A stretch of 58,823 nt of DNA from an uncultured Armatimonadota bacterium (GCA_903899015.1 CAIUHP010000092.1:1-58823); one strand, 5' to 3'. Counted from the stretch's first letter, positions 10,002-33,011 are shown. The notes: a model not told the origin generated them from the sequence alone. Numbers and translations: made by a program.

Positions 10002-12094
10002 TCTGGTTTGCTCCGAGCACGCCGTTTCTCCATCTCACGAATCGATTGTCCAAACTTTACGATGTCTTCCCGCATTTTTAAAACTGCTTCGGAGGATACA
10101 GCATTGGGACCGAAAAGCTGCTCGGCAAATCGCTCATTCAGCATGGCCGCTTGCTCGAAACATTCGTTGAGGCTGGGAGCAACAATCGCCAAGAATTCGT
10201 CTGCAGTTTGACCAACCATCCGACGTTTTCCGCTGGTGCGCTCAAGCACCTTTACAAACGCCAAGTAGCTTCGTTCCGCTTCGGACCTTGGATTCTGAAG
10301 TGGCTTCTTGCTCTGCCAGCGGTAGTACAACCGAACAAATAGGAAACCAAGCGCGGCAATGAAAACGGCTGCGACTGGAATTTGGAAGACGGCTCTCTTA
10401 TAAATGGGAGGTGGCTTTCCGGCGTCGCCGAGCCCCTCGCCTTCTTTAAATCTTGCACTGGTAGTTGGATCGAAGACAACCCAACCCGCATCTTTGTAGA
10501 TCAGTTCAGCCCAGGCATGGTAGTCCAGATCCGTAACAACGTAGCTTCCGTTAGATTCGATTCGCCGAATGTCCGGCAAGTAGCCATTAACGTACCGGGC
10601 AGGAATTCCCACTGCGCGCGCCATGATGACCATCGCCGAAGCGAACAGGTCGCAATACCCTTCGTGTGACTCAAAGAGTGCGTATTCAACAGCATCCTTA
10701 TCACTTGGAGTGGGGTCCGCGTCGAGATTATAAAGAATGCGCTTCGAGATTTCCGCTTCAATCAGCCGGGCTTTTTCATAGTCATTTTTCGCGCCTTTGG
10801 TGACATCTAAAGCGAGTTGGGCAACTCGAGGGGATATGCCAGACGTGTCCAGTAGTTTTTTGAGTTCAGGGGCTACGACCGCTTTCGTCGGCTTAACGCT
10901 AGGATCAATTTCGAGCCCTTTCCCTCGCACAACCGTTCCTGCGGGCAGGTCCGAACTCTGTTCAAACGTGCCGTCCTTAAAGCTCAACAGTCCCACATTA
11001 TCAGCGGTGGGTTCGACGGCTTCGGCGGGAAGAGGAATGACTTTTAGGTTTTGAAGCAGCGAGATCTGAAATTGAAACTCTTTGTTCCGCTTCATCTCAT
11101 AAAACGCGTCGTCATTCGGTGTTGCTTCGTCGGGAGTGGTCCCCAATCGGCTAGTATCGTTCCTCCACCCATGTCCGGTGTAGGATTGAAAACTTTGCTC
11201 ACGCAAGTATCGAATCTGATCCAGTTTTGCTTCGAGCACCGGTCGGTTCAAGTTATGATTTGGCCCGCGACCGATCCCCACTGAGGAGAGTTGACCGCTA
11301 GCGCCAGACGCAGTGGCAGAAGGTTGATTCTTTATCGGGGGTGGCGTAAGGGCAACCATTCCCGCAACGCCTGACACCGACTGACGAATGATCGGTGCGC
11401 CAAGTAAACTCAGCAAAACCACCGCCAAGGCAGACAGCAGCGCCCATTCCGGTCCCGCAACCCAACGCCAAGGTCCCTTTCGCAGTTCTAGCGCGAGGCC
11501 GGGAGTCGTTTCCACCGACGGTATTGGGGTTCCTGGTGCCAGTCCTCGAGTGAAATATCCCGAATTGGCCGCCTGCTGAAGCATCTGCCGACTATGCGCC
11601 CTTGCGAAGAGGGTGGCGAGGCAAATGAGAAAAGCGAAGAAGTTAAACGTTACGAAGCGGTAAGTATCGTAGCAACCCACCAACCCGAAGAGAGCAAGGG
11701 CTGGGATCGCTTGGAACAGCAAAGTTGAGTCTTGCCACGTTGCAAAGGAACCTAAAATGAGCATCCAGGACAGCCATCCTGCCGCCGCAATTTCTCGAGG
11801 AAATCCGGATTCGGGCATCAGCGCATTTAAAGCGCCTGCGTAGTAAATGGAACAGATGACCGCAATCGCGTACAAAGCCCAATCCCACCGAATAATGGGC
11901 GACCGAAGGGTTTGAATCCGAATCGTGTAACTGGTGAGAGTCCCGATGATTACGAGCGCCACTGAGAAGTAGCCTATCACCGGCTCGGAAATACTCATTG
12001 CGGCCGAGAACACTGCCAAGCAGCTTCCGATCGCCATCAAAACGTAGTCCAGCCAACCGATGCGGCTTAAATCGCGCTCACGCCGTTTCCGCAA
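9998..12094 (-). CDS. Membrane transglutaminase-like protein, TgpA-type (698 aa)
   Basis: The N-terminal 200 residues contain about five to six hydrophobic segments, followed by a long outer-face region, a transglutaminase core and another membrane helix (PVAAVFIAALGFLFVRLYY). The core has the Cys/His/Asp triad: EGYCDLFASAMVIMARAVGIPARYVNGY, HAWAEL and WVVFDPT. Family members with this plan are encoded with DUF58 and MoxR proteins, as here. TTG start at 12094 with GGAGGTGA just upstream; it overlaps the DUF58 gene by 17 bases. Confidence 0.8.
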   Translation of the reverse strand: MRKRRERDLSRIGWLDYVLMAIGSCLAVFSAAMSISEPVIGYFSVALVIIGTLTSYTIRIQTLRSPIIRWDWALYAIAVICSIYYAGALNALMPESGFPREIAAAGWLSWMLILGSFATWQDSTLLFQAIPALALFGLVGCYDTYRFVTFNFFAFLICLATLFARAHSRQMLQQAANSGYFTRGLAPGTPIPSVETTPGLALELRKGPWRWVAGPEWALLSALAVVLLSLLGAPIIRQSVSGVAGMVALTPPPIKNQPSATASGASGQLSSVGIGRGPNHNLNRPVLEAKLDQIRYLREQSFQSYTGHGWRNDTSRLGTTPDEATPNDDAFYEMKRNKEFQFQISLLQNLKVIPLPAEAVEPTADNVGLLSFKDGTFEQSSDLPAGTVVRGKGLEIDPSVKPTKAVVAPELKKLLDTSGISPRVAQLALDVTKGAKNDYEKARLIEAEISKRILYNLDADPTPSDKDAVEYALFESHEGYCDLFASAMVIMARAVGIPARYVNGYLPDIRRIESNGSYVVTDLDYHAWAELIYKDAGWVVFDPTTSARFKEGEGLGDAGKPPPIYKRAVFQIPVAAVFIAALGFLFVRLYYRWQSKKPLQNPRSEAERSYLAFVKVLERTSGKRRMVGQTADEFLAIVAPSLNECFEQAAMLNERFAEQLFGPNAVSSEAVLKMREDIVKFGQSIREMEKRRARSKPE

Positions 12095-13280
12095 AGGTCA
12101 CCTCCGTTGGCATGACGGTTGGAATGGCGCCTGCATCTCTTAAGGCACCCATAAACGCAGGATCAGTAGCTGAAATGATGCCCCGCTTAGGCTCAAAGAC
12201 ACTTGCATCGTAAACGAGGGGGATAACGCTCGTTCCTCGAGCAACCAGTTGGGGAGCGGCATCACACAACGTTCGATCGGCAACCGCCATCATCACGAAG
12301 AGCACGCTTCCCGTCGGAAGTTGACCTACCAGCGCGGAAACTTGGTCTCCAAGAGTTAATTTTGAATCTGCTTGAATGTTTGCAACCAACTCGTAGATTT
12401 CAGCAATTCGCTCCTGCATAGATCCACGTGTTGTGGTCGTTTCAATTCCTGGGAACTCGACGTTCGCGCCCTGCCTAAGGAAGGCTTCGGCAAGATAAAC
12501 GAGGTTGCCACAAATCAATTCCAAGCTTGTGTTAGCTCCGGTACCGACCTCGGTACCTCGCTGAGTCTGGATCAAGAAAGCAGCCGCCGCTTGAGTGCCC
12601 GCTTCAAATTCTTTGACAAGAAGCTCGCCGCGTTTGGCAGTCGATCGCCAATGGACGTGGCGCAACGAGTCACCGTAGACATAATCTCGAACACCTCGCG
12701 GTTCTAGACCGGCACCTCTGGCTTGACCGCTTTCCGCTTCGCTGATTCCCCAACCGGCCGCGGCTGGCAATTCGAAAGACACAGGAATAGGTCTCGGCAA
12801 AACCGTCATCTCAGCTGGTGTCGTTTCATATTGCCGCTTGGCAGAAACCAGGCCCAAAGCATCCGTTCCTTCAACCAGCAGTCCGCTCCACTTGTAGTGT
12901 CCCCGCTTGAGTGGTCGGAACTGATATTGGGTTCTAATTGGAATATCGTACGCAGCTGCAATCGGAAGGCTCGCCGTTAGCGCGGAAAGAATCATACGGG
13001 CAGGACGACCATCGACCACTTCGATAAGCGGTCTACGGATTTTATGCTCGCTCCAAACTGTGATTTCAACCGTCACCAAATCGCCCACCCGAACACTCTC
13101 GGGAGCGATTCTTTCAAAGCGTAGACCTCGAACCGATAACCATGCTTGAAGACGGCATGCGCCAATGGTGGCGATAAGCGCGGTGCCCATGTAGAACAGG
13201 GCAGGCGAATTCAGCATGAGTGCGACGACTGCCAAAAAGGCAGACGCCAAAACCATCGTGAATCCGGCGACGTTTCTCAA
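12078..13280 (-). CDS. DUF58 (von Willebrand-like) protein (400 aa)
   Basis: Two N-terminal hydrophobic segments are followed by a beta-rich domain and the DUF58 signature region: RGVRDYVYGDSLRHVHWRSTAKRGELLVKEFE. This D-x5-HW motif marks the family. DUF58 proteins work with MoxR ATPases and membrane transglutaminases; the partners are its direct neighbours. TTG start at 13280, six bases after MoxR. Role in folding or assembly of envelope proteins is inferred from family pairing. Confidence 0.8.
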   Translation of the reverse strand: MRNVAGFTMVLASAFLAVVALMLNSPALFYMGTALIATIGACRLQAWLSVRGLRFERIAPESVRVGDLVTVEITVWSEHKIRRPLIEVVDGRPARMILSALTASLPIAAAYDIPIRTQYQFRPLKRGHYKWSGLLVEGTDALGLVSAKRQYETTPAEMTVLPRPIPVSFELPAAAGWGISEAESGQARGAGLEPRGVRDYVYGDSLRHVHWRSTAKRGELLVKEFEAGTQAAAAFLIQTQRGTEVGTGANTSLELICGNLVYLAEAFLRQGANVEFPGIETTTTRGSMQERIAEIYELVANIQADSKLTLGDQVSALVGQLPTGSVLFVMMAVADRTLCDAAPQLVARGTSVIPLVYDASVFEPKRGIISATDPAFMGALRDAGAIPTVMPTEVTFAETA

Positions 13281-13286
13281 GCTCGA

Positions 13287-14237
13287 TTATCCAACTGGAA
13301 GTGGCGTTTGGACGGACTCTAAGATTCGGTCGATTACTTCTTCGGTCGTTTGACCTTTTGCTCTCAATTCGGCTCGAGGCATCACTCGGTGAGCCAACAC
13401 GCAACTCGCCATCGCCTTCACATCATCAGGCCGAACAAAGTCATGACCATTGATAGCCGCGTTGGCTTGAGCCGCTCTCATCAAATAAAGGGATCCTCGC
13501 GGTGAAGCTCCAATCAAGAACTGGTTGCTTTCCCGGGTCGCACGAATAACATCGACGATGTATTCCTTTAGCGATTCATGAACAAAGACATCTCTTACCG
13601 CGGCTTGCATCTCGGTCAAGACGCTCAAAGGCACCACACTATTCACGAGTTCAATCGGGTGAGCTACCTGTTGTTGGGCGAGAATAGCGGTCTCGCTGGA
13701 TCGGTCAGGATATCCAAGTGAGATACGACCGAAGAAACGATCGAGCTGTGCTTCGGGCAGAGGATACGTGCCCGTCATGTCAACCGAGTTTTGAGTCGCA
13801 ATAACGAAAAATGGGATCGGCAGTTGACGTGTCTCGCCATCGGTCGTCGTCTGTCCTTCTTCCATCGCTTCAAGAAGAGCCGACTGAGTTTTGGGAGTAG
13901 CGCGGTTGATTTCGTCTGCTAGAACCACGTTTCCAAAAATTGGCCCCGGCCTGAACTCAAACTCGGACTGCTTCTGATTAAAGATTGAGCTCCCCGTAAT
14001 GTCTGAAGGCAACAGGTCAGGGGTGAACTGAATGCGCTTAAATTCTCCACCGATACTCTTGGCCAGTGATTTTGCTAGGGTCGTTTTCCCAACTCCGGGA
14101 ATGTCCTCAATGAGCAGATGCCCGTTACAAAGCAGGGTGATGACGGCTTTTCTGACAGTGGCTCGTTTACCTACAATAACCTGTTCTACTTCGTCGATGA
14201 TGGACTGTGCATTTGATGCGATTTCCGAAATGATCAA
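13287..14237 (-). CDS. MoxR-family AAA+ ATPase (316 aa)
   Basis: Walker A EDIPGVGKTTLAKS near residues 44-57, Walker B VLADEINRATPKTQSALLEAMEEGQ, sensor region FFVIATQNSVDMTGTYPLPEAQLDRFF and the C-terminal lid with SPRGSLYLMRAAQANAAI are all present. MoxR ATPases act as chaperone-like partners of VWA or DUF58 proteins. It is the first gene of a leftward cluster. TTG start with GGGGAGAG upstream. Confidence 0.88.
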   Translation of the reverse strand: MIISEIASNAQSIIDEVEQVIVGKRATVRKAVITLLCNGHLLIEDIPGVGKTTLAKSLAKSIGGEFKRIQFTPDLLPSDITGSSIFNQKQSEFEFRPGPIFGNVVLADEINRATPKTQSALLEAMEEGQTTTDGETRQLPIPFFVIATQNSVDMTGTYPLPEAQLDRFFGRISLGYPDRSSETAILAQQQVAHPIELVNSVVPLSVLTEMQAAVRDVFVHESLKEYIVDVIRATRESNQFLIGASPRGSLYLMRAAQANAAINGHDFVRPDDVKAMASCVLAHRVMPRAELRAKGQTTEEVIDRILESVQTPLPVG

Positions 14238-16827: not shown

Positions 16828-17328
16828 TTACATTCCGGATACGACTTTGCCGTCGATCTTAGTATTTTCCTTCAGAGTCTTGGAACTCTTGAGCTTCCAA
16901 TCGGCGCCGACTTTCACCCATGTGTCTTCGCTCACCTGGGAACTCTCGATGAGGTGCGGAGTTCCAGAAGGGTCAATAGGCGATGTCAGCTTATAACTAG
17001 AACTCACCCGAGCAACCGCCATCGATCCTTTCGTAGTGAGCGTATCGATATGCGTCGTTGAATTCATAAATTTGACGATGACCTTCATTTGCTTGCTCAT
17101 ATCGCTGAGCGCCTTTTCAACCGTTTGTTTTTCACCTTTTCCAGTGATAAAGAAACAATCTTTTGTGGCAACTTGCTTAAGCAACTTGGTCAAGCCGGTC
17201 ATTTCCTTCTTAACACTGAGTGAGTCCAACTTGTTGTAGATGCCCATCAGAGTGGATTTTGTTGAGCCTTGATAGGCAAAGGCAGATGTTGCGGCAACGC
17301 AGATTGCGAGAATTGAGAGCTTTTTCAT
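16828..17328 (-). CDS. Secreted NTF2-like (DUF4440-type) protein A (166 aa)
   Basis: A clear signal peptide (KKLSILAICVAATSAFAYQ) precedes a small alpha+beta domain. Pattern: KLLKQVATKDCFFITGKGEKQTVEKALSDMSKQMK, and the ending VSEDTWVKVGADWKLKSSKTL. The final D-TWVK-x-G-x-WKL motif is typical of SnoaL/DUF4440-like domains. Function unknown. Its neighbour at 17364 shares the plan; both read leftward and are separated by 35 bases. Confidence 0.6.
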   Translation of the reverse strand: MKKLSILAICVAATSAFAYQGSTKSTLMGIYNKLDSLSVKKEMTGLTKLLKQVATKDCFFITGKGEKQTVEKALSDMSKQMKVIVKFMNSTTHIDTLTTKGSMAVARVSSSYKLTSPIDPSGTPHLIESSQVSEDTWVKVGADWKLKSSKTLKENTKIDGKVVSGM

Positions 17329-17363: not shown

Positions 17364-17840
17364 TTACTCAGCTGGTTGGAGTTGCATGTCGGCATTAACT
17401 TGGACTCTCTTTTGCAGCTTCCATTCCTTGCCTTGTTTCACCCAGGTATCCGTGTCTACACTTTGGTCTGATAAGGAATAACGGCGGGAGTCAATATTGA
17501 CCATTCCCTTAAATTCAGAGGCAATGATGACAACCTGCTGTTGCCCTTTCGCCTGGACCGATCGAACGGTCAAGGTTGATGAAATCACCCGGGTCGTGTT
17601 TTGCATGTCTTGGGTCAGACTCGTTCTAAACCCATCCAAGCTGTACTTCGTTTTATGGAATGAGGTGTAGCTGAATTTGGGCTGACAGTTGTTTTTGACC
17701 CATGCATCGATGCCGTTGCGGTCGCTCTTTAAGTAACTGGTATTGAATTGTTTGTACTTAGCAATCAGAACTTCTTTCGGTGAAGGAGTGTGGGTGACAA
17801 GCGAAACCGCCAGAATGGGCGCGAGCGCCAGACAGATCAT
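17364..17840 (-). CDS. Secreted NTF2-like (DUF4440-type) protein B (158 aa)
   Basis: Starts with a hydrophobic signal peptide (ICLALAPILAVSLVTHT). The domain has FSYTSFHKTKYSLDGFRTSL in the middle and DTDTWVKQGKEWKLQKRVQV near the end, mirroring the neighbour at 16828. Tandem paralogues; ligand unknown. Confidence 0.6.
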   Translation of the reverse strand: MICLALAPILAVSLVTHTPSPKEVLIAKYKQFNTSYLKSDRNGIDAWVKNNCQPKFSYTSFHKTKYSLDGFRTSLTQDMQNTTRVISSTLTVRSVQAKGQQQVVIIASEFKGMVNIDSRRYSLSDQSVDTDTWVKQGKEWKLQKRVQVNADMQLQPAE

Positions 17841-18048: not shown

Positions 18049-21000
18049 ATGCGACTAAAACGTGTCCGAATATTCGGATTTAAAACTTTTGCGGACCGCA
18101 CCGAGTTCAACCTCGATGGCGGAGTTATCGCGGTTGTTGGACCGAATGGTTGCGGAAAATCAAACCTGGTTGATGCGATTCTATGGGGCCTCGGTGAAGG
18201 CAACGCCCGGCACCTTCGTGCCCAAACGAGTCAAGACGTCATCTTTAGTGGCACGCCCCGTCGCAAAGCGGTCGGCTTCGCCGAAGTAAATCTCCTATTC
18301 GACAACGAAGACGGTTCTTTACCGATTGATACTCCCGAGGTCTCGATCAGTCGACGATTAACCCGCAATGGAGACACCGAGTATTCCATTAACCGCCAAT
18401 CCTGCCGCCTACGAGATATCTATGACCTTCTCGCCGACTCAGGATTGGGACGCGCAGGATATGCAATCGTCGGCCAGAAAGAGATTGACTCAGCACTTTC
18501 AGCGTCCGCCGAGGATCGACGAGGCTGGATTGATGAGGCAGCCGGAGTACAGCGTTACCGAGTTCGTAAAGTCGAGAGCCAAAGGCGCTTGTCTCAAGCT
18601 CTTGAGCACCTTGCTCGGGTCAACGACATTCTCAATGAACTCGAATCGCAACGCGAGCCTCTCAAAGAGGAAGCAGAAGTTGCAATCCGATACAAGACAC
18701 TTCTTGAGTCGCTTAGAGACGTCGAGATTGGTCTATTGGTCGTAGAGGTAGTCAAAGCAGTTCGGGAAGTCGCTCAACTAGAAAAGAACCTCGAAGAATC
18801 CGCCCGCCTCATGCGCGACGAATTGGCTCGGGCGGAAGTCCTTGATTCTCAGGCCAAGCAAACCGCCTCAAAAATCTCCGACCTTGAACTAGAGATGGAC
18901 GCCGTACGAGCGATCCAGCAAAATGCGTTGACCAGTTTGGAGCGAGCAAGCGCGAACCTCAAATTGCTCGAACAGAGGCTCGCGAGCTTAGACGAACAGG
19001 AGAAATCGCTCGATACTGACGGTCAAGAGAGTCTGGGCAGATTGTCTGACACGGAATCGGAAGTGGCGGCTCTCGTCATTGAGGAAGCTACTGAGCGTCA
19101 GGCCCTTGACGACCTCCGAACGGAGTTATCAGGAGTCGGAGTTGAAGCGGCAGCCCTCAAAAAGGCACTCGTTCAGATCGAACAGGAGTTGAACCAAGCC
19201 CGGTACAAACACTCCCAATGGCTCAAATCTGAAGCGGAGCAAGCTCACCGAACAGAGAGAAAGACTCAAATCAACCGGGAGCTTAAAGGTATCGACGATT
19301 CACTCCCTGAACTCCTTGCCGGTTTAGCGGCTGCTCAGGCAAACTTTGACGATTCTTCTGCAACCGCTCAATCTCAAACGGCGGTCATCAAAGAGCTCGA
19401 CGCCAAAATTATCGAGATCCGCAAAGCTGAGGAAGCCGACAGTCAGGCCGTCCGAAGATCCATGGCCGAGAAAGCAGCTCTTGAAGGCCGAAAGCGTGGT
19501 ATTGAGGCGACGATTGACGCTCATGAGGGCCTCAATCAAGGTGCTCGTGCGGTTCTTGAAGCCGCGGACCGAGGAATTCTCAAGGCGGACTATGTCGCGG
19601 TCGGCTCCGCAATTGAAGTTGAAAAAGACCTTGCGCTTGCCATTGAAACCGCACTCGGTGGCTCCTCAAACGATCTCATCGTGGATGACCAGCAAGACGC
19701 AAAAGTGGCGATCGAATGGCTCAAACAGCATCGAGCGGGACGAGCGACGTTCCAACCCATCCCCTTGATGCGTCCTTCCGAAGCGACACCCGAGATGCGA
19801 CGGTTGATTGGACAGGCCGGTGTAGTTGGTCGAGCAAGTGATCTTGTGCAATGCCGCGCAAAGCATCGCCCGGTTATCGACAGCCTTCTTGGCAGAGTCG
19901 TCATTGTCGAGGACATTGACGTTGCGCTTCAATTTGCGAAGTCTGGCGGTTGGGGACGCATGGTCACCCTCGACGGCGAAGTCGTTCACAGTAGTGGTGC
20001 GGTAACGGGCGGACAACAATCAAAGCAAGGATACGGACTCGTCCAGCGCAAATCGGACCTTACTACAATTAGCCAAGAAATCCAGCGGCTCGAAAAGATC
20101 GTCAACGAGTACGACAAACGAGCGGCCGCTCGTGCTCGGGCAACTCAGGAGGCTGAAGCAAACGCAGCTGCCGAACGCAAGAAATTCGCAGCCGAACAGT
20201 CGGATCTTGCCGAGGCCCGAAACTATCTGCAATCTCTTTCGGATGAGGTCAAGAGCACCCAAAAATCGAGAGATCGACTGGCTCATGAGCTTGAGCAAAT
20301 GGAGAAGGCGGGTTTGAAGCAGGGTGAGAATGTCGACATTCCCTCTATCGAAACAAGGCGTGATGAAGCATTGAGAGCCTTGGCGAGTAAGTCGGCAGAT
20401 GCTGAGCTCGCAGTCACTCGGCTTCGGGAAGCTGAACAACGAGTGGCTCAGGCGCAGTCCCGACTCTATACCGGTAAAAATCGACTTCAGAGGTTTAAAG
20501 AAAACGAGCAACAAAGATTGCACCGACTCCAAAACCTTGCTCCCGAACGCGAAAAAATCCAAAAGGAAATCATTCAAGTTCAAGAGCGATTTGTAGAGGC
20601 CGAGAAATCAAAGGGGGATGCTGAAAAGACCCTTGAGAAGCATCAAGTTACGAAGAGAGCGCTCCTTGAACAGAGCCTTCAACAAAGTGAAGAGGCCAAG
20701 GCGGCTCGAACGAATGCTTCCGCGGTAAGTGACGCCGCTCACCAGGCCGAGCTCAACCGAGCCCGTGCCGAGTCTCGACGGGCTAATGCGTTGCAAAGAC
20801 TATTTGAAGAATACGGAATGACCGAAGAGGACGCATTTGAGCAAGAAGGAACGCATGAGGTTCCCAAAGACGCCTCAGTGGTCGTCAACCGCTTGCGCCG
20901 AGAAATGAGGGCCATGGGGGATGTCAACCTCGGAGCCATTGAGGCTTACCAACGACTCACAGTTCGAGTCGATGAGTTAGGGGGGCAACGTGACGATATT

Positions 21001-21552
21001 CTGTCCGGCATCGAACAAGTTGAAGCCAGCATCTCCGAGCTCGACAAACTTACCCGAGACAAATTCTTAACGACGTTTGAAGCTGTCCAATTAGCCTTCA
21101 CAGAGATGTTTGGTCGCTTGTTTGGTGGTGGCGAAGGAAAGATCTCGCTCTCAGATCCGGAACGAGTTTTAGAAAGTGGAATCAATCTTGATATCACCCT
21201 TCCAGGCAAAAAGCGTCAGCCATTGGCACTCCTAAGTGGTGGCGAGAGAGCTCTCTGCGCATCCGCATTCTTGTTCGCACTGTTGCGTGTCAAACCTTCC
21301 CCGCTCGTCGTACTCGACGAGGTTGACGCACCAATGGACGGAAGCAACGTGGAAAGGTTCGCCAAGATGCTCCACGAGTTCACTGACAACTCTCAGTTCA
21401 TCGTGATCACTCACAACCCCACAACGATTCAGACCGCACCTGTGTGGTTGGGTGTCAGCATGCAAGAGCCTGGTATCTCTATGCTTCTCCCCACCCGCAT
21501 CGCCGGCAAAGTTCCCGAGCGCGACCTACCAGTCGTCGCCGACGCCCACTAG
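18049..21552 (+). CDS. smc: Chromosome segregation ATPase SMC (1167 aa)
   Basis: SMC dimers fold and segregate the chromosome. Walker A VVGPNGCGKSNLVDA (about residues 29-43) and the arginine-containing GTPRRKAVGFAEVNLLFDNEDG lie near the N-terminus. Long coiled coils follow, with a hinge near 500-640 (KADYVAVGSAIEVEKDLALAIETALGG, RAGRATFQPIPLM). The C-terminus holds LLSGGERALCASAFLFALLR (signature, about 1061) and PLVVLDEVDAPMDGSNVERF (Walker B/D-loop, about 1084). Length is usual. ScpA and ScpB are not adjacent. Confidence 0.95.
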   Translation: MRLKRVRIFGFKTFADRTEFNLDGGVIAVVGPNGCGKSNLVDAILWGLGEGNARHLRAQTSQDVIFSGTPRRKAVGFAEVNLLFDNEDGSLPIDTPEVSISRRLTRNGDTEYSINRQSCRLRDIYDLLADSGLGRAGYAIVGQKEIDSALSASAEDRRGWIDEAAGVQRYRVRKVESQRRLSQALEHLARVNDILNELESQREPLKEEAEVAIRYKTLLESLRDVEIGLLVVEVVKAVREVAQLEKNLEESARLMRDELARAEVLDSQAKQTASKISDLELEMDAVRAIQQNALTSLERASANLKLLEQRLASLDEQEKSLDTDGQESLGRLSDTESEVAALVIEEATERQALDDLRTELSGVGVEAAALKKALVQIEQELNQARYKHSQWLKSEAEQAHRTERKTQINRELKGIDDSLPELLAGLAAAQANFDDSSATAQSQTAVIKELDAKIIEIRKAEEADSQAVRRSMAEKAALEGRKRGIEATIDAHEGLNQGARAVLEAADRGILKADYVAVGSAIEVEKDLALAIETALGGSSNDLIVDDQQDAKVAIEWLKQHRAGRATFQPIPLMRPSEATPEMRRLIGQAGVVGRASDLVQCRAKHRPVIDSLLGRVVIVEDIDVALQFAKSGGWGRMVTLDGEVVHSSGAVTGGQQSKQGYGLVQRKSDLTTISQEIQRLEKIVNEYDKRAAARARATQEAEANAAAERKKFAAEQSDLAEARNYLQSLSDEVKSTQKSRDRLAHELEQMEKAGLKQGENVDIPSIETRRDEALRALASKSADAELAVTRLREAEQRVAQAQSRLYTGKNRLQRFKENEQQRLHRLQNLAPEREKIQKEIIQVQERFVEAEKSKGDAEKTLEKHQVTKRALLEQSLQQSEEAKAARTNASAVSDAAHQAELNRARAESRRANALQRLFEEYGMTEEDAFEQEGTHEVPKDASVVVNRLRREMRAMGDVNLGAIEAYQRLTVRVDELGGQRDDILSGIEQVEASISELDKLTRDKFLTTFEAVQLAFTEMFGRLFGGGEGKISLSDPERVLESGINLDITLPGKKRQPLALLSGGERALCASAFLFALLRVKPSPLVVLDEVDAPMDGSNVERFAKMLHEFTDNSQFIVITHNPTTIQTAPVWLGVSMQEPGISMLLPTRIAGKVPERDLPVVADAH

Positions 21553-22312: not shown

Positions 22313-23566
22313 TTAGGGATTGATCTCGAGACGGTCGGAAAATGCGGACTTCCAACGCGTTGACACCTCGATTTTTCCCTTGCCCTTAAAACCTTCACTG
22401 TAAAGTTCGTAGCCGTCAGAAGTTCTTCGGTAGATGAAATCACGCCCGGTGAGCGGATCAACCGAAGCTTCCCTTCCTACAACTTCAAGAAGAGTCTCAG
22501 GATATCGGTCAAATTCCCATCGAAATGCCGCGATTCGCAAATGGAGGGCCATTAACCGAATCTGAGTTCGGTTAATGGCAAACATCGTGCCGATGTCTTG
22601 AGTCGGATCATCGGACACCATCGGGACAATGAGTTTGGCAAAAGCACGCGCTTGAAAGGATGCATTGGGATAGGCAAGATTGAAATCGGGAGGTGAGATG
22701 GGTACGAGATTGACTCCCCATTCTGATTCTGGACGAGCTAAGAGATCAACGAGAGATTGGTCTTGCCCCGAGATGATGGAGGCAGCATAGTCTCTGATAA
22801 CGGCCTTGTCGTCGATTGAAAGCTGTCTTAGCAGCTTCGATAATTCTGAATCCGACCGAGTCAGGGGCTCCCTTAGGTTGAGGATGTCGTCCAATCCCGC
22901 CATCGTCATTTGATGCTCACCTTCATACCCTTCAATAATCTTCTTGGGAGAATCAAGTAGTTGGCTGACTCCATCGGTCAGTTTTTCGCAATCCACCTGG
23001 CTCAAACTCGGTATGACGGTCATCAAATGACTGATGACGACTTTGGTCATCGCTGCCCGCACGAAATAAAGTAGCCGGATATCATAGGGCTGCTTCTCAC
23101 AAAATAGCAGGGCTTGCGCGATCTCCGACGCTCCCTCGCGTTCATCTCCATGCGCAAACGCCGCGTAGGAACTGGACTCAAACATCACAGGAACGCCACG
23201 AAAGAAGGCCAACTCCGGGAAAAGAGTTGAAGGCAAAATTGTTTTATTGGGATATGCAACCGGCTTATTAAGACCGAATCGAATCATCTTCAAAACGGGT
23301 TTGAATCTTTTGGCAGAGAGTTCTTCGCCCGACAGGAAATCTTCCGTCTTCTGTAGCCAAGCGGGTAGTCCTTGTGGGTGTTCTTGTCGATCGGGAGATC
23401 GAGAGTAACGATGAAAGTCGCCCGCGTCAATCGTACGCGCCAAGATGGCGGCTTGGACGAATTCTTCGTAGCCATTCATGCCCGTCCAATTCGTGATGAC
23501 TCTGTCGAGGGCAGTTTGAGAACCGGTCTGCATGGCCACAAGAACGACGGCAAGTAGAACTATCAG
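22313..23566 (-). CDS. Membrane-anchored protein, tandem paralogue 3 (417 aa)
   Basis: The third of three homologous genes. A longer open frame extends to 23749 across the previous gene, but alignment with paralogue 2 puts the start at a CTG at 23566 whose last bases overlap that gene's TGA (CTGA). AGGAGG lies three bases before it. The protein starts with one hydrophobic segment (LIVLLAVVLVAMQTG), then NWTGMNGYEEFVQAA. Its C-terminus carries RTQIRLMALHLRIAAFRWEFDRYP, DPLTGRDFIY and GYELYSEG. A GTG (23539) or ATG (23533) start would remove part of the anchor. Function unknown. Confidence 0.6.
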   Translation of the reverse strand: MIVLLAVVLVAMQTGSQTALDRVITNWTGMNGYEEFVQAAILARTIDAGDFHRYSRSPDRQEHPQGLPAWLQKTEDFLSGEELSAKRFKPVLKMIRFGLNKPVAYPNKTILPSTLFPELAFFRGVPVMFESSSYAAFAHGDEREGASEIAQALLFCEKQPYDIRLLYFVRAAMTKVVISHLMTVIPSLSQVDCEKLTDGVSQLLDSPKKIIEGYEGEHQMTMAGLDDILNLREPLTRSDSELSKLLRQLSIDDKAVIRDYAASIISGQDQSLVDLLARPESEWGVNLVPISPPDFNLAYPNASFQARAFAKLIVPMVSDDPTQDIGTMFAINRTQIRLMALHLRIAAFRWEFDRYPETLLEVVGREASVDPLTGRDFIYRRTSDGYELYSEGFKGKGKIEVSTRWKSAFSDRLEINP

Positions 23567-24738
23567 CCGCCTCCTACAGAAGCACTGTAAGGTGCTAAGG
23601 GATCTTCGTTCTCGCTCCCCGTAACGACAATTCGGTATGCCAATCCTTTCTTTTGATCGAGTCGAAACAGTTTTTTTGTTCGAGGATCTATCAGTTCGAA
23701 CGGAGCAGCTACTTCTTTGAGCATCGTTGGCAGATGACCACGGTGCCACCGAAAGTCTTGAACTCTCGCATATAGATTGAGAAGCCGAATTTGTCCTCTC
23801 GACTTGAGTCCCGAATCCAATTCAGCTTGGGTCGGTACCACCCACTGGAGGATCGATTCAGCAAGCACACTTAGACTTGCAGACGAGGTTGATCCTATAG
23901 GCTCACTCGACCTGCTCACGTCGGAATTCCATGCGACCTCTTCTTGTCGAAATCTCTTGATGAGAGGTTCAAAAGTAGACTTGAGATGGTCACCAACCAT
24001 GATCTTCAAGGTCTGTAAATCTGATGCACTCAAAGCACCTATTTTTCTTGCCAAATTCGATCGCTCAGGAGAATTTGGATAACCTGCACTGGTTCCGGCA
24101 AGGATTTGGTCACACGTGGTGCGGCCAGCAGCATAATCTGCTTCTAGAGTATTCAGGATAGGGTTCTTCTCGTTTAAAATTGCGCCTGTTCGCTTTTCAA
24201 TTCTCTCACAGTCCTCAACCGACCATCGGTCACGTTGTGCAACAAATGCAGTCAGCGCGGTGGAGAAAAGGTTGCTCCCCGCCTGCAATCCTCGAAGGTT
24301 TTGCTTATGAACGTTGTTACAGAAGGTCATGAGCTCCAACATTTGATTGGTGCCCTTGAGCCAGTCACCTCGGGAATAAGCAATATATGCGGCGTCGCAC
24401 GCGAGATGGGTTAGGTCTAGGAATTGGGAATCTTCAAGCCCAAGGTATCGGGTACCTCTTGTGGACACTTTGGTATTTCCCTGAGCCATAAGCTTGAGCC
24501 ACATACCGAATTTTTCGACCTCAGATTTCTTTCTTGCTAAGGGAGTAGCGAACGCATTCGTGTCTGTAACTGGATTGCTTGAATCCCAGACTCGATACAT
24601 TGAAAACTCAGGAACAGAAATTCCATCAGCAGCCCTAAGATAATCCACGTAGCCGTTTGTATTTGGTTCTTTTGGCAGAATCCGGTTAGCGAGTCCTCCC
24701 GATTGGAGAGTCATCAGGATGATCAACGATGCGATCAA
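23563..24738 (-). CDS. Membrane-anchored protein, tandem paralogue 2 (391 aa)
   Basis: The middle copy. Starts at a TTG whose overlap with the preceding stop reads TTGA. One N-terminal hydrophobic segment (IASLIILMTLQSGGLANRI) and NGYVDYLRAADG follow. The C-terminus shares the family block RGQIRLLNLYARVQDFRWHRGHLP, then DPRTKKLFRLDQKKGLAYRI. Its overlap with the next gene suggests co-expression. Function unknown. Confidence 0.6.
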   Translation of the reverse strand: MIASLIILMTLQSGGLANRILPKEPNTNGYVDYLRAADGISVPEFSMYRVWDSSNPVTDTNAFATPLARKKSEVEKFGMWLKLMAQGNTKVSTRGTRYLGLEDSQFLDLTHLACDAAYIAYSRGDWLKGTNQMLELMTFCNNVHKQNLRGLQAGSNLFSTALTAFVAQRDRWSVEDCERIEKRTGAILNEKNPILNTLEADYAAGRTTCDQILAGTSAGYPNSPERSNLARKIGALSASDLQTLKIMVGDHLKSTFEPLIKRFRQEEVAWNSDVSRSSEPIGSTSSASLSVLAESILQWVVPTQAELDSGLKSRGQIRLLNLYARVQDFRWHRGHLPTMLKEVAAPFELIDPRTKKLFRLDQKKGLAYRIVVTGSENEDPLAPYSASVGGG

Positions 24739-26087
24739 GCGCGCACCTGTGGCACTCCGAAGCTCGAAGCATATTGATAGTTCAATTCGATCTCCCCGGT
24801 CATCCTGTTCCCTCTGCTAAACAATCGATAATGATCTCCTGATAACTCGTACACGAAGTTCTGGTTGCTCAAGGGATCGAAATCAAAATTCACTGGGAGC
24901 TTTAGTTCGTTCAAATCGGTGGGCAACCTGCCCCATTCCCATTGAAAGGAAATGATTCTTGCATGTAGTCGCAAGAGTCGCAACTGTGTTCTAGACGCAA
25001 GAATGGCAAGGATAGGTTTGGAATTCGTCGCAAAACTTGGCGTCCAGCCGTTTGCGAAGATATGTTCCACATCGATGATCGACTTGGGTGGAGTGTTGGG
25101 CTTGGAATTTTCGTCGGTTACACTTTTTGACCAAGAACTTTCCGGCTCCGAAAATGCCTTTAATACCAGCAAGCATCGCTCACCAATTGCCTGTTGGACG
25201 TGCTCGATGACGGCGGACACGTCTGTATCGTTTAGGGTGTTGAGTTGCTGGGAGACTGCATCCAAAACTTTGTCGTGAGATTGAGTACTTCCCTGTTTTC
25301 TCGCCTCAAGAATCATGCCGCCGACAGATTGCTTCGCATGATCCATTTCCCGTTGACATGCCTCAATGCAGGCAGGAGGCTCATTCAAAATCATCGTGGC
25401 GAATTGTTCTAGGAGCCGAGCGTCATCCGTCGAATAACTGTTTAATCGGTCGTTTACTAAAGAACAGACTCGATTGAGGTTAACGATTGAAACGAGCGTT
25501 GAAAAGTAGTTTCGATGAGCCAGCCTGTTTGACATCAGGAGCAGCTGACCCAAGATATTCACTGAATTTTCGCTTTCTCCCTGAGCGAGTGATGCATAGC
25601 TGCTATCAATAGATAATTTGCCAATACCAAGCACATCAGTAACGGTTGGAAACCTAGTATCGGCTTGTATGGGTGGCAAATAAAATGCCTTATCATTCCC
25701 GATTCGCATAAAGTTCAGAGCTTGGCCAAATACCCTTTCTTCCTCTTGGCGAACCTTAAGATAGTCGAGAGAATTGATGCTGTTGAGCAACGAGACAAAC
25801 CTTGGGTCGGGATTTGCTTCTGTCTCATCGGTAAACCGACTTTTGGGCTTCGCCCCAGTTTCCTTCCCTGAGTCGTCCGAAGCGATCCATTCGTTATAAG
25901 CGTTAAAATGCCTCTGGCGCAAGAAATCTGTTCCGAGAACGTACTCTTCAAGACCATTCGCCCCGGTCGGATTGGGGAACATCTCTGGAAAAAGTGGCTT
26001 AGAGAGCCAATTCTCTTGAAGAACCAAGAAGATACTGAGTGTTGCAAGCATGACGGCAGTGGCTATAACGTCGCCAGCACATTGCAA
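24735..26087 (-). CDS. Membrane-anchored protein, tandem paralogue 1 (450 aa)
   Basis: The first copy. The TTG at 26087 or an ATG at 26051 (MLATLSIFLVLQ, which aligns with the paralogues' starts) could be used. One N-terminal hydrophobic segment, then GANGLEEYVLG. The middle is helical. The C-terminus has RTQLRLLRLHARIISFQWEWGRLP, FDFDPLSNQNFVYELSGDHYRLFSRG and GEIELNYQY. This end resembles the pseudopilin-like C-terminal pattern (DP-x-F-x-Y...YxLYSxG). Surface or periplasmic role is inference. Confidence 0.6.
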   Translation of the reverse strand: MQCAGDVIATAVMLATLSIFLVLQENWLSKPLFPEMFPNPTGANGLEEYVLGTDFLRQRHFNAYNEWIASDDSGKETGAKPKSRFTDETEANPDPRFVSLLNSINSLDYLKVRQEEERVFGQALNFMRIGNDKAFYLPPIQADTRFPTVTDVLGIGKLSIDSSYASLAQGESENSVNILGQLLLMSNRLAHRNYFSTLVSIVNLNRVCSLVNDRLNSYSTDDARLLEQFATMILNEPPACIEACQREMDHAKQSVGGMILEARKQGSTQSHDKVLDAVSQQLNTLNDTDVSAVIEHVQQAIGERCLLVLKAFSEPESSWSKSVTDENSKPNTPPKSIIDVEHIFANGWTPSFATNSKPILAILASRTQLRLLRLHARIISFQWEWGRLPTDLNELKLPVNFDFDPLSNQNFVYELSGDHYRLFSRGNRMTGEIELNYQYASSFGVPQVRA

Positions 26088-26130: not shown

Positions 26131-26811
26131 TCAATTTCGAAGATGCTCGTTGAAGAACTTTGTGGCACGATTCCAACTATCCTCGGCAGCTTCTTTGTTG
26201 TAAGCCGGACGGGCATCGTTGAAAAATGCATGGTGTGTCCCGGGATACGTAATGAATTCATGCTGCTTTTCGAGGAGGGTCAACTCTTCCGCGAGAGGTT
26301 TGATCTGTTCGGGTCCCGCGTAGGCATCTGTTTCAGCAAAGAAGCCAAGTAACGGACAGTTCAAGTCACGCAATGCAGGTTGGGCATTGGGGTGGATGCC
26401 GTAGTAGTCAATACAGGCCCCGATATTTGGATTTCCACAAGCCGCATAAAGAGACAACTGGCCTCCCATGCAAAAACCAACCACTCCAACCTTCGAACCT
26501 TTAGTCGATGGATGAGACAAGAGAGTCTCGATTGCTCGGGCTAAAATCGTCGCCGTCTCGCCGATATGAAGGGCCATCATTAATGATCCCGCTTCATCGG
26601 GTTCATCGGTTGTTTTGCCTCGGTAGAGGTCTGGCGCAAGGACATTAAACCCGGCGGCAGCATATCGATCTGCGACATCCTTGATGTGCCCTACAAGGCC
26701 CCACCACTCCTGAATGACAATGATTCCTGGACCTTTTTCAGAACCTGGCGAAGCTAGGTATCCCTCGTAAGTCTCGTCGCCACCTTTAAACTGAATCATC
26801 TGACCGCTCAT
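26131..26811 (-). CDS. Dienelactone hydrolase family protein (226 aa)
   Basis: Alpha/beta hydrolase of the dienelactone hydrolase type. The nucleophile is Cys in VVGFCMGGQLSLYAACG, with the Asp in LLGFFAETDAYAG and the His in YPGTHHAFFND. Early region GIIVIQEWWGLVGHIKDVADRYAAAGFNVLAPDLYRG supplies the oxyanion side. Cytosolic; substrate is a lactone or ester, unknown. Lies 13 bases downstream of the pseudouridine synthase and is probably co-transcribed with it. Confidence 0.85.
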   Translation of the reverse strand: MSGQMIQFKGGDETYEGYLASPGSEKGPGIIVIQEWWGLVGHIKDVADRYAAAGFNVLAPDLYRGKTTDEPDEAGSLMMALHIGETATILARAIETLLSHPSTKGSKVGVVGFCMGGQLSLYAACGNPNIGACIDYYGIHPNAQPALRDLNCPLLGFFAETDAYAGPEQIKPLAEELTLLEKQHEFITYPGTHHAFFNDARPAYNKEAAEDSWNRATKFFNEHLRN

Positions 26812-26824
26812 ACTTCTATCCTAC

Positions 26825-27727
26825 TTAAAACTCTTCGAGATGTTCCCGCTTTACCATCGCTGCCCCGAAGAACGATGCATCTGGACTGGCAAATACTGCA
26901 ATCCGTTCGTTTGTCGTGGGATGATCAAACGCTAAATAGCCTGCGTGAAGTTGAAGATCTCCAATAGCCAATTCTTTTGGAGCATAAAGCTTGTCACCAA
27001 GCACGGGGTGCCCCACCGCACTTAGATGGACTCGAATTTGGTGGGTTCGTCCAGTTTCCAACCTTGCCGCAATGAGCATGCCTTGCTCAAGCCGGAACAA
27101 TCGCTTCACATGTGTAACCGCCATCTTGCCGTTTGCATCCACCGTCATTAGCAACCGATTGTGCTTATTTCGGGCAATTGGGGCTTCGACTTTGAACCGG
27201 TCCTGTTCAATATCCCCGTGTACGACCGCGAAATATCTTCGCTCTGCGGTCTTCGTCTCCATTTGCTTCGCCAACTTGACGTGTGCATTATCGTTTTTCG
27301 CAACGACCATCAGTCCCGTGGTTTCCTTGTCTAATCGATGAACGATCCCGGGTCGGAACGAGCCTGCAGTTTGACTAAGACTAATGTTGCGTGCAAGGAG
27401 TGCGTTCACCAAAGACGGTTCTTTCAGGGATGCGGCCGGGTGAGCAGCCAAACCGCGCGGTTTATTGACGACTAACAGGTCTTCGTCTTCAAAGAGGATG
27501 TCCAGGGGTATGTCAGCGGGAGTTAGATCGTGAACCTCGCTTGGACCTGGTTCGTCCAAAACGACTTCCATGCCGGAGGTGACTGTGAAAGAAGACCGCT
27601 GGACTTTTCCGTCTACGAGCACAACCCCTGCGTCAATAAGCTTAACGAGACGAGATCTGCTGTGCTCGGGGAGCATCCTTGCTAAAAATTTATCAAGGCG
27701 CTCATTTTGTTCGACAGTAAATAACAC
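26825..27727 (-). CDS. RluD/RluA-type rRNA pseudouridine synthase (300 aa)
   Basis: An S4 RNA-binding domain (residues 8-55: ERLDKFLARMLPEHSRSRL...) is followed by the catalytic domain with the Asp in GIVHRLDKETTGLMVVAK (Asp133), then the Arg-rich GRTHQIRVHLSAVGHPVLGD. The combination is that of RluD, which modifies 23S rRNA helix 69; the exact target is inferred. GTG start with TACAAT five bases before it and no ribosome binding site, so the mRNA is probably leaderless. Confidence 0.88.
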   Translation of the reverse strand: MLFTVEQNERLDKFLARMLPEHSRSRLVKLIDAGVVLVDGKVQRSSFTVTSGMEVVLDEPGPSEVHDLTPADIPLDILFEDEDLLVVNKPRGLAAHPAASLKEPSLVNALLARNISLSQTAGSFRPGIVHRLDKETTGLMVVAKNDNAHVKLAKQMETKTAERRYFAVVHGDIEQDRFKVEAPIARNKHNRLLMTVDANGKMAVTHVKRLFRLEQGMLIAARLETGRTHQIRVHLSAVGHPVLGDKLYAPKELAIGDLQLHAGYLAFDHPTTNERIAVFASPDASFFGAAMVKREHLEEF

Positions 27728-27856: not shown

Positions 27857-28300
27857 GTGCGAAATTCGATCTTCAGTGTCTCTGTTTGTGCCGCGCTTGT
27901 ACTGGTCGGATGTTCCAAGGAAACCCACGAAGCAGCCTCAGCTAGTCAGGACAATTCTAAAGCGGGTATCCCCGCCAATGGTTTGGCAATGTCCAAGGAG
28001 GAGCTTGCCGCCAAAGCAGACATTCCTCTCTATCCCGGAGCCACCGTTCCCGAGGGCCAAAGCAAGGTCACACCAAGTGGGGCGGAGACTCGATACGAGA
28101 TCAATATGTTCACCAACGATCCGGTTGACAAAGTGGCCCAATTTTACAAATCGAAGATGAAAATCGATCGTCTTGGAAACTCCACCTCCGCTGACATGAT
28201 GGGAATGACCCCAAAAGGAGAACTCGCTAAAATCAAGATCGAACTCAAGGACGGCAAGACTCACATTCAAGCGATTACGGTTGAAGAGAAAAAGTCTTAA
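27857..28300 (+). CDS. Lipoprotein of unknown function (147 aa)
   Basis: A signal peptide ends in the lipobox VLVGC with Cys19. The mature protein has IPLYPGATVPEGQSKVTPSG and MFTNDPVDKVAQFYKSKMKI, the kind of small alpha+beta domain seen in many secreted proteins with a PGA motif. Convergent with the next gene, 3 bases apart. Confidence 0.65.
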   Translation: MRNSIFSVSVCAALVLVGCSKETHEAASASQDNSKAGIPANGLAMSKEELAAKADIPLYPGATVPEGQSKVTPSGAETRYEINMFTNDPVDKVAQFYKSKMKIDRLGNSTSADMMGMTPKGELAKIKIELKDGKTHIQAITVEEKKS

Positions 28301-29513: not shown

Positions 29514-32500
29514 TTAGCTCTTTACGGTTGACTCAGGAACACTCGTAACTCCTGCAGCCTCGAAGTCGAGAGGGCCCGAATGAGGGGGTGTCTTGCCCAT
29601 CAATTTGCTAATCCCAATCGACAAGTCATCGAAGATCGTGTAAGAGCATGGGATAACGACTAAGGTGAGAATCGTCGAAAGCGATATTCCTCCAATAATC
29701 GTGATACCAATTGTCTCACGGAACTCAGAGCCGCGACCGATTGCAAGGGCAACTGGAAGCATTCCTAAGATTAGGGCAAGAGTCGTCATCATGATCGGGC
29801 GTAATCGGGTGGGTCCCGCTTCAACCAACGCATCATGCCTACTCCTGCCTCGATCTCTTAGGGTGTTGGTGTAGTCGACAACAAGGATTGCGTTTTTACC
29901 TACCAGTCCTATGAGTGAGATGATTCCGATAAAGCCAACCAAGTTCAGTGACTTGTCAGTCAGGATCAGTGCCAAGAGAGCTCCGACCATCGCCTGAGGC
30001 TGGGCCATCTGAATGATCAGAGGGTAAAGCCAGTTGTCATACAGAGAAGCGAGAAGCATGTAGACGAGGAGGAATCCCATACCAAGCGCCGAGAACAGAA
30101 AGGCTGATTCTCGTGCCTGAGCGTCCGCTTGGCCCAACGGCTTATAAATTACGCTGTCCGGTACAAGGTGCTTTTGGGTCAGCCACGAACTGATTTGAGC
30201 TGTGACCGTTCCGTTTGCATAACCCGGTAGAAGGTCGGCGGTAACTTGGATCTCTTCTGAACGCTGTCTTCGGGTGATCTTATCGATACCCGGCTTCTGG
30301 AGAATTGTCGCAACGGATGGAATCGTAACCGGATTGCCTTGATTGAAGACAAACGGAACCTGCCTCAAGATGTCAGGGTTGTTTCGATCTGCGGTATCCA
30401 TCATCACTCGGATGGGATATTCCCGACCGTTGACGCGCATTTTCGTATCGTCGTTGCCTTGATAGAGGGTTTGGACCGCTCGTCCCAGATCACCGACCGT
30501 TGTGCCATGATCCGCCAAGGCTAATCGGTCTGGCGTTACCTGTAGCTCAGGCTTACCTTCTTTCGAACTGATATCCGGATTAATAACACCCTTAATCGCG
30601 CCCTGCGCTAATCCATCTCGAACTGCCTGAGCGGTGGCTAACAGAGCCGCTCGGTTGTCCGATGTGAACGAAAGCTGGATCGCTGAGCCAAAGCTGAATC
30701 CGCTCGTCGCAGAAACTTTAACCGAAGCACCAGGAATGTGATCAATTTGAGCCGTGAACTGGGCAGCCACGCTCGTACTGCTGCGATGTCGGAATCGCTC
30801 AGTGTGTTTCGCCCAAGGAAGTCGATCTGTAAATGCTTCCTTGTCAAACAGGGTCGCCTGAACTTGAGCAAAGTTTGAACCTTGGTTCGAGGCACCTTGT
30901 TGGCCAACCGCCTGGTTTCCGATTGTCGAAACGACGTATTTCACGTCAGGATCGGCTCTCATAACCTTTTCAACTTGCTCAACAACTTTTTGACTGTCTG
31001 CCAAGTTGGCACTCGGCGGAAGCTGAATGTTGGCTTGGACTTGACCGCCATCACTATCTGGCAAGAAGCCAAACTTGAAGACAGCCTCTCCCTTGTACTG
31101 AGCGTATTCGTAACCGGCGACTGACGCGACCGGGAAGATCATGGCAAATGCCACCGCGCTCAGAACGTATTTCAGAGTGAACTTCTTGAACCGAATCAGG
31201 TTCACGACAGTGGTGATGATTCCGATAACAAGGGCGATGGGGAACATCTTCATGCCCCCTTGAATCGCTCCCGGGATTCCCACTGCAGGAACTGCACCCT
31301 TAGCTGCCGCCAAAACCTCAGGAGGAAGTTTCGCTGGAACAAATGTGCCACCAAGGAATGAAATGACCGCGAAAAGGGCGAGGTTTCCAGAAAGGAAAAC
31401 GAACCAGCGGTGATTCAACGACCACTCAAGAACTCCACGATAGAAGTGTTCAAGCTTTGCAAAGCCACGCTCAAAGGCGGTTGCAAACCAACCTGTCGGG
31501 TGCTCCATATCTTCGCCCGTCTTGTACCATCTCGAAGCCAAGAGCGGCGTGAGAGTAAACGAAACGAAGAGTGAGAATAACGTCGCGCAAACAAAACCGA
31601 GAGCCAGGGGCTTGAAGAACTGGCCAACAATTCCACCCATAAAGGCAATCGGCAAGAAGACGACAACGTCGGCAAAGGTAATCGCCAAAGCCGCGAGACC
31701 AATTTCTGCGCGTCCATTGATCGCTGCTTGTCGTGGGTCTTCTCCGAGCTTTAAGTGACGATAGATATTTTCGAGAACAACGATCGCGTCATCGACGAGT
31801 ACTCCGATAGCCAACGAAAGTGAAAGCATCGACATGTTATTGATCGTGAACCCGAGAAGGCTCATCGCAATAAATGTCGCGAAGATGGATGTCGGAATCG
31901 CGAGGGCGACGATGATCGTTCCTCGCATGTTGTGTAGGAAGATGAAGACGATCGTCGCAACCAGAAAAATGCCAAAGCCCAATGCGAAGTTAAGGTCCGC
32001 AATGGAGTCCTTGATCTGGGTCGACTGATTGAACGTCTCGATGACGTTTAGGTTGATCCCAGCATATTCTTTCTGCATAGAAGCAATAACCTTCTCTGCT
32101 TCCTGAGTAATCTGCACGGCGTTTCCGTCACGCGCTTTCTGGATCGCGATAACAATCGCGTCTTTTCCATCCAAACGAGAATAGGCCGTGCGTTCAATAG
32201 TCGCATCATCGATCGTTGCAACATCTGAAAGTCGAAGCGTTCGACTCTTAGCTTGTGGGTTCTTGGGATCGCTGACCGTAATGATCATGTCCCGAATCTG
32301 TTTAGGATCAGTAAAGTCAGCCTTTACACGAACCGAATACTCTTGCTGAGAAGTAACGACTCGACCACTAGGTGCGTTCAAAGACGCGCCTGAAACAGCA
32401 TTGAGAATCGTATTGATTCCTAAGCCGTACGCCAGTAGTCGGTCTTTCTTAACGCGAACCTGGACCTCACGCTGGTCGCCGCCCTGCACCGATGCACTTG

Positions 32501-33011
32501 CGACACCATTGATCTGTGAGAATCGATCCACCAGTTTGTCGTCCATAAGGTCACGAAGTCCCTTACTGGATAGGCTGCTGCTAAAAGAAAGATTGAGAAC
32601 GGGGCTTGCAGAGCTGTCAAGTTTCGCTACTTCCGGCTTTAAAACATCCTTGGGCAAGCTGTTTACGGAAGCATCAACCTTTGACCGGACATCGCTCAAC
32701 GCAACATCGACATTTCGGTCGAGTTCGAGAGTGATAACCACAACCGAGACTCCCTCTTGCGAGGTACTCGTGATCTCACGAACGCCGTTGACACCAGAAA
32801 CCGATTCTTCGATTTTTCTGGAAACTAGCTCGTTGATGTCGTCCGGACCTGCACCAGGATATCGAGTTGTTACTGTGATCGTTCCGAAGCTAACTTCGGG
32901 ATTAAGCTCTTTTCTCATTCCGAGATAGGAAATCGTTCCCATAAGGAACGCCACGATCATCAAAACGAAGATGAATACCGGTCGGGTGATAGCTGTTCGT
33001 GTTAAGTTCAA
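29514..33011 (-). CDS. RND efflux pump, AcrB-like, with an extra membrane hairpin (1165 aa)
   Basis: Tripartite-pump inner-membrane protein. The N-terminus is typical (first helix [23 protein letters not shown]). TM4 has [21 protein letters not shown] with the proton-relay Asp pair. The second half has [22 protein letters not shown]. It is about 120 residues longer than usual: between TM7 (about 535-550) and the second outer domain (FLPDSDGGQ near 646) it has two more hydrophobic stretches, [19 protein letters not shown] and [21 protein letters not shown]. An even number keeps the usual topology. Overlaps the membrane-fusion gene by four bases. Substrate unknown. Confidence 0.85.

Follow-up and report, generated by a model that had tools for sequence, protein, structure and literature searches.

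Three overlapping genes in an uncultured Armatimonadota bacterium encode strongly diverged paralogs whose C-terminal ends resemble a pseudopilin, which raises the question of what these proteins do and whether the three act together as parts of one machine. The stretch analyzed, hereafter referred to as the window, comprises 58,823 nucleotides (GCA_903899015.1, CAIUHP010000092.1:1-58823). A preliminary description had proposed that the genes encode membrane-anchored proteins of no described family, possibly a multi-subunit surface or secretion complex.

Organization of the three genes

All three open reading frames are located on the minus strand. Gene 1 (24735-26051, 438 aa) encodes a short hydrophobic N-terminus followed by a predicted helical domain and a pseudopilin-like head. 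It is followed by gene 2 (23563-24738, 391 aa), which starts with TTG, and gene 3 (22313-23566, 417 aa), an open frame recognized by its paralogy to the other two. The stop of gene 1 and the start of gene 2 overlap by four bases (TTGA, 24735-24738), as do the stop of gene 2 and the start of gene 3 (CTGA, 23563-23566), which confirmed the coupled order reported previously. The earlier lengths of genes 2 and 3 were retained, whereas gene 1 had been read as a 450-aa frame from TTG 26087 (24735-26087). Because of its alignment with homologs, such as gene 1 of locus L034 (42% identical), gene 1 probably starts at ATG 26051. No ATG, GTG, or TTG was found at the expected start site of gene 3; the sequence AGGAGG lies three bases upstream of CTG 23566, which is the likely start. 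Overlaps of the same NTGA type also join tandem members in other genomes, namely G013 (GTGA), G031 (ATGA), and G136 (ATGA twice).

The three proteins were found to be paralogous over their full length in every pair, sharing 21–24% identity with BLASTP E values far beyond chance (3e-15 for genes 3 and 2, 1e-19 for genes 2 and 1, and 2e-27 for genes 3 and 1). The shared motifs that had been noticed earlier, NG..Y, the RxQxRLxxLxxR...F[RQ]W block, and the DP...F.Y end, were all present and conserved across 30 homologs. The C-terminus of gene 2 is degenerate, reading RLDQKKGLAYRIVVTGSE where the others have F.YE...YRLYS.G.

Database searches and distribution of the family

Neither the trio nor the homologs tested gave a credible match in Pfam, NCBIfam, PHROGs, PADLOC, or the PDB sequences, in agreement with the initial impression that no described family was involved, and plasmid searches with the family returned nothing or chance matches. 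A scan with a 30-row profile (alignment A2, E ≤ 1e-5) detected matches in 232 of 291 Armatimonadota genomes, including 161 of the 194 best genomes; a wider superfamily accounts for the weaker matches. Members are often present in multiple copies per genome and often in tandem, the copy numbers being lower bounds, as up to six candidates were scored per genome. In the genome of the window, a fourth close member was located on contig C65, and weaker ones were located on C75, C12, C68, and C104. A collection of named genomes was scanned with another alignment (A3), as A2 was too diverse, and yielded 20 loci, many of them labelled Fimbriimonas, Fimbriimonadaceae, or Chthonomonas. All of these loci were from Armatimonadota under a single strict peptide pattern, and the family may extend beyond the phylum. 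Similar architectures may occur in Planctomycetota and other phyla. On the basis of sequence comparison, the trio belongs to an undescribed family that is spread across Armatimonadota. A family that is found in 80% of the phylum genomes searched and has no entry in the searched libraries represents a real annotation gap.

The proteins on C12 and C68, together with their relatives, constitute a sister family with a similar layout and a GspG-like '..YSVGPN.KDDGG' end. The profile of this sister family aligned with A2 along the full length (hhalign probability 99.9%, E 8e-34). Its membrane segment was 25 residues long in the two proteins whose N-termini were checked, and it also occurs in tandem pairs and trios. 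The C12 protein (L128; G000:C12:23725-25167) and its relatives had no Pfam match.

Predicted structure and the pseudopilin-like head

The AlphaFold2 model of gene 1, built with a 27-row alignment, had a pLDDT of 85.7 and a pTM of 0.86. It is helical from approximately residue 21 to 340, continues in a long helix (344-373), and contains two strands within residues 400-412. A two-domain layout is thus confidently predicted, with an N-terminal all-helical domain of approximately 310 aa followed by a C-terminal domain of approximately 100 aa. The whole model showed no significant fold match (Foldseek E ≥ 1.3), and its VIA Z scores of up to 7.2, among helical repeat and 14-3-3 proteins, correspond to background.

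The C-terminal domain of gene 1 (24738-25088) comprises the long helix and a beta hairpin; the corresponding regions of gene 2 (23566-23883, partly degenerate) and gene 3 (22316-22672) were delimited with alignment A5. Modelled alone, the last 117 residues of gene 1 reached a pLDDT of 87.9. Foldseek ranked GspG/EpsG pseudopilins first to third with probabilities of 0.85–0.60 and TM scores of approximately 0.5, with E values of 1.2–1.6 that are not significant alone. In VIA, Vibrio vulnificus GspG (3gn9) matched with Z 9.4 (2.2 Å, 81 residues aligned), and ranks 1–18 were all type IV filament subunits, with Z decreasing from 9.4 to 4.4 and the next match at 2.6. When the C-terminal profile was compared with the phylum's own GspG by hhalign, the two aligned in register with a score of 33, or 27 without insert columns; 60 column shuffles scored no higher than 10.8, and the reversed profile scored 1.6. 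As the fold and profile comparisons agree, the C-terminal domain is predicted to be a GspG/PulG-type head, and the suggestion of a pseudopilin-like end was borne out.

Nevertheless, these proteins are not considered pilins despite the pilin-like head, because they lack a prepilin signal and the alpha1-N helix. No class III (prepilin) signal resembling [GA]^[FY]TLIE was present at the N-termini of the trio or of 27 homologs, and the trio had no N_methyl match in Pfam. The Pfam model T2SSG (PF08334) matched neither the trio at E ≤ 10 nor any of 30 members at E ≤ 1. The hydrophobic alpha1-N of approximately 30 residues directly before the head was also absent. The helix leading into the head is situated in the middle of the protein and carries the conserved R.Q.RL..L motif.

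The sole hydrophobic stretch is located at the extreme N-terminus and spans 9–17 residues in nearly all members. It mostly begins at residue 1–2 and mostly has no basic residues before it; this lack of a basic n-region is unusual. Such a short stretch is more likely to be a secretion signal than the permanent membrane anchor assumed previously, and the proteins are probably exported.

Relation to type IV filaments and type II secretion

The resemblance of the head to GspG, in both fold and profile, suggests that the proteins could be accessory components of either a type IV filament or a type II secretion apparatus, with the head docking on the tip or side of the filament and the helical domain acting as the working part. 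An analogy is provided by the helical domain inserted in GspK. Pilin heads with large extra domains are also known from ComZ of Thermus and CpaL of Caulobacter, for which a location at the filament tip has been proposed (PMC6561018; PMC12607857). ATPases of the T2SSE (type IV filament) family and 24–118 prepilins were present in all 12 genomes tested, so the partner may be a type IV filament of another kind. In the phylum-wide comparison, GspG served as the sole marker of type II secretion (E ≤ 1e-15) and strong members were defined by E ≤ 1e-30. Genomes with strong members were somewhat more often GspG-positive than the others (50/66 versus 133/225; Fisher p 0.014, uncorrected for kinship).

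We consider this accessory role less likely than the reading favored below. The absence of a prepilin cleavage site and an alpha1-N core helix leaves no known route into a filament. In addition, 16 of the 66 genomes with strong members had no detectable GspG, including genomes that are at least 95% complete (G031, G150, G038, G039, and G045), which suggests that GspG-type secretion is not required. No secretion or pilus gene recurred beside the family in the neighborhoods compared. Four of 28 loci had a pseudopilin gene (cluster c7) in the vicinity of the family, which was judged unremarkable because each genome contains approximately 80 prepilins. Of the previously suggested link to a secretion complex, the canonical type II system therefore appears not to be an obligate partner, and another type IV filament may be involved.

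Locus neighborhood and history of the array

Upstream of gene 1, a dienelactone hydrolase gene (26131-26811, minus strand; Pfam DLH, 4.6e-55) lies on the same strand, 79 bases from ATG 26051, and it is followed by a gene for an RluD-type pseudouridine synthase (26825-27727, minus strand; Pfam). On the other side is a gene for an SMC chromosome segregation protein (18049-21552, plus strand; named from its sequence; cluster c6 in five loci). The same slot between the RluD-type and SMC genes is occupied by the family in the window and in G013 (L034), G025 (L042), G005 (L044), and G032 (L049), with three copies in the window, two in G013, and one in each of the others. The dienelactone hydrolase was present in four of the five slots, and besides the window it adjoins a family member in L042, L044, and L049. 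Trios are also found in G023 and G136, at another locus that is flanked by PurD- and PurB-type genes (also named from sequence).

Several other genes in the window were noted. Two small, probably exported proteins are encoded beside SMC (16828-17328 and 17364-17840, minus strand), the second with a weak DUF4440 match; they represent a further small tandem group of probably exported paralogs, with relatives beside SMC in L044 (8576-10809) and one in L034. A probable lipoprotein of 147 aa (27857-28300, plus strand) could be assigned to no family; L042, L044, and L049 encode related proteins close to the RluD-type gene. An RND efflux transporter of the AcrB family (29514-33011, minus strand; 1165 aa, two matched stretches) appears by eye to contain, after residue 560, an insertion of approximately 100 residues that includes additional hydrophobic segments, and L044 encodes a relative of comparable length (1161 aa). 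At 9998-14237 (minus strand), genes for a MoxR ATPase, a DUF58 protein, and a transglutaminase-core protein stand in a row, a combination known from bacteria.

In a tree of 40 proteins, gene 1 paired with the first copy in L034 (support 100/99) and gene 2 with the second (L034:9352-10515; 100/100). Gene 3 formed a long branch elsewhere, without a counterpart in G013 or a clear ortholog. The AU test rejected the trio as one clade (p 4e-5; p 0.04 with the two L034 copies added), and with it a recent triplication, although the long branch of gene 3 calls for caution. The tree and the AU test together indicate that the pair of genes 1 and 2 predates the split from G013 and that gene 3 has a separate origin. 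The tandem pairs in L035, L038, and L039 and the first two members of L036 clustered in the tree and seem to be local duplicates.

These data bear on the possibility that the trio is a dedicated hetero-oligomer whose stoichiometry is fixed by translational coupling. The four-base overlaps, found as well in the tandem arrays of other genomes, are consistent with such a complex, as is the preservation of both order and overlap of genes 1 and 2 in G013. However, the trio as such was seen in the window genome only, and genes 1 and 2 alone have a same-order pair elsewhere, in G013. Isolated single members are present in many genomes, and the trios in G023 and G136 are, by the tree, separate expansions. 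A hetero-oligomer of this kind is accordingly improbable, and the multi-subunit complex that the preliminary description considered possible is not supported as an obligate assembly of the three.

Proposed function

Neither His nor Cys occurs at any alignment column that is conserved in 70% or more of 30 members. Among the conserved positions are N44, E47, Y49, G130-N131, K133, G170, P315-E316, W319, R366, R370, W383, P389, D404-P405, F411, and Y413 (numbered by gene 1 in its 450-aa form). Without a conserved His or Cys, catalysis is less likely than a role in structure or binding. A function as exported enzymes or as inter-bacterial effectors of some unrecognized kind is quite improbable: fast divergence, tandem expansion, and export, the last probable here, are common in such families, but no conserved catalytic-looking residues and no immunity-like partner gene were seen, and the defence and phage libraries contained no match for the family.

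The reading that we favor, with a probability of roughly one half, is that the three proteins are exported and are not part of a filament; a ligand or partner would be bound by the helical domain, and the pseudopilin head, detached from its filament context, would provide stability or docking. The proteins would be exported by the Sec pathway through the short N-terminal signal and would act outside the cytoplasm, where the all-helical domain of approximately 310 aa would serve a binding or scaffold role. The GspG-type head, devoid of the prepilin site and the filament-core helix, may stabilize the protein or mediate its docking. Through translational coupling, tandem paralogs would be produced jointly as divergent variants, and the array would represent a set of related binding proteins rather than an obligate three-part machine. 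The occurrence of single-copy members and of members in GspG-less genomes suggests autonomous function and argues against both an obligate trimer and a canonical type II secretion part.

More broadly, and tentatively, Armatimonadota may have built a large extracytoplasmic class of proteins by detaching a pseudopilin head from the filament and placing it behind a new helical domain, often as tandem arrays of co-translated variants. The pilin fold, which serves in filament subunits and in tip adhesins, could in this way have found a third use. What would be new is the family and the setting in which a known fold is employed; by its predicted fold, the head belongs with pilins. If true, this would show that a pilin head is not tied to the filament and can be reused as a building block in different exported proteins. 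The family may also inflate counts of 'pseudopilins' in genomes. The genome of Fimbriimonas ginsengisoli is reported to contain 79 PulG (COG2165) genes, 65 of them with the N-methylation motif (PMC4072686).

Comparison with known systems

TPR and 14-3-3 proteins, which ranked best in the fold searches with the whole model, likewise consist of antiparallel helix arrays; none of these matches was significant, and Z scores of 5–7 are background for helical models. The head resembles GspG/PulG, the major pseudopilin of type II secretion, in its long helix followed by a beta hairpin and in the pattern [YL]P...DP.(G)..[FY].Y...Y.[LV].S.G. It differs from GspG in the absence of the class III signal, the hydrophobic alpha1-N, and the T2SSG match described above, and in its C-terminal position behind the helical domain. 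The D/G-rich end loop of GspG is lost in the trio and kept as DDGG in the sister family. As a separate observation, four GspG-type (T2SSG) frames are found in a row in G004 (C40:2218-3896; L119), and those examined by alignment had no usual prepilin start.

The minor pseudopilin GspK consists of a pseudopilin head and a helical domain, and it shares this combination with the present family, although it was not among the structural matches listed. In GspK the helical domain is inserted within the head, whereas in the family it is N-terminal to the head, and GspK retains alpha1-N and is prepilin-processed. ComZ and CpaL likewise join a pilin head to a large functional domain (PMC6561018; PMC12607857). 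Their pilin head is N-terminal and accompanied by a beta-solenoid or vWA domain, whereas in the present family, which lacks the filament features, the helical domain precedes the head.
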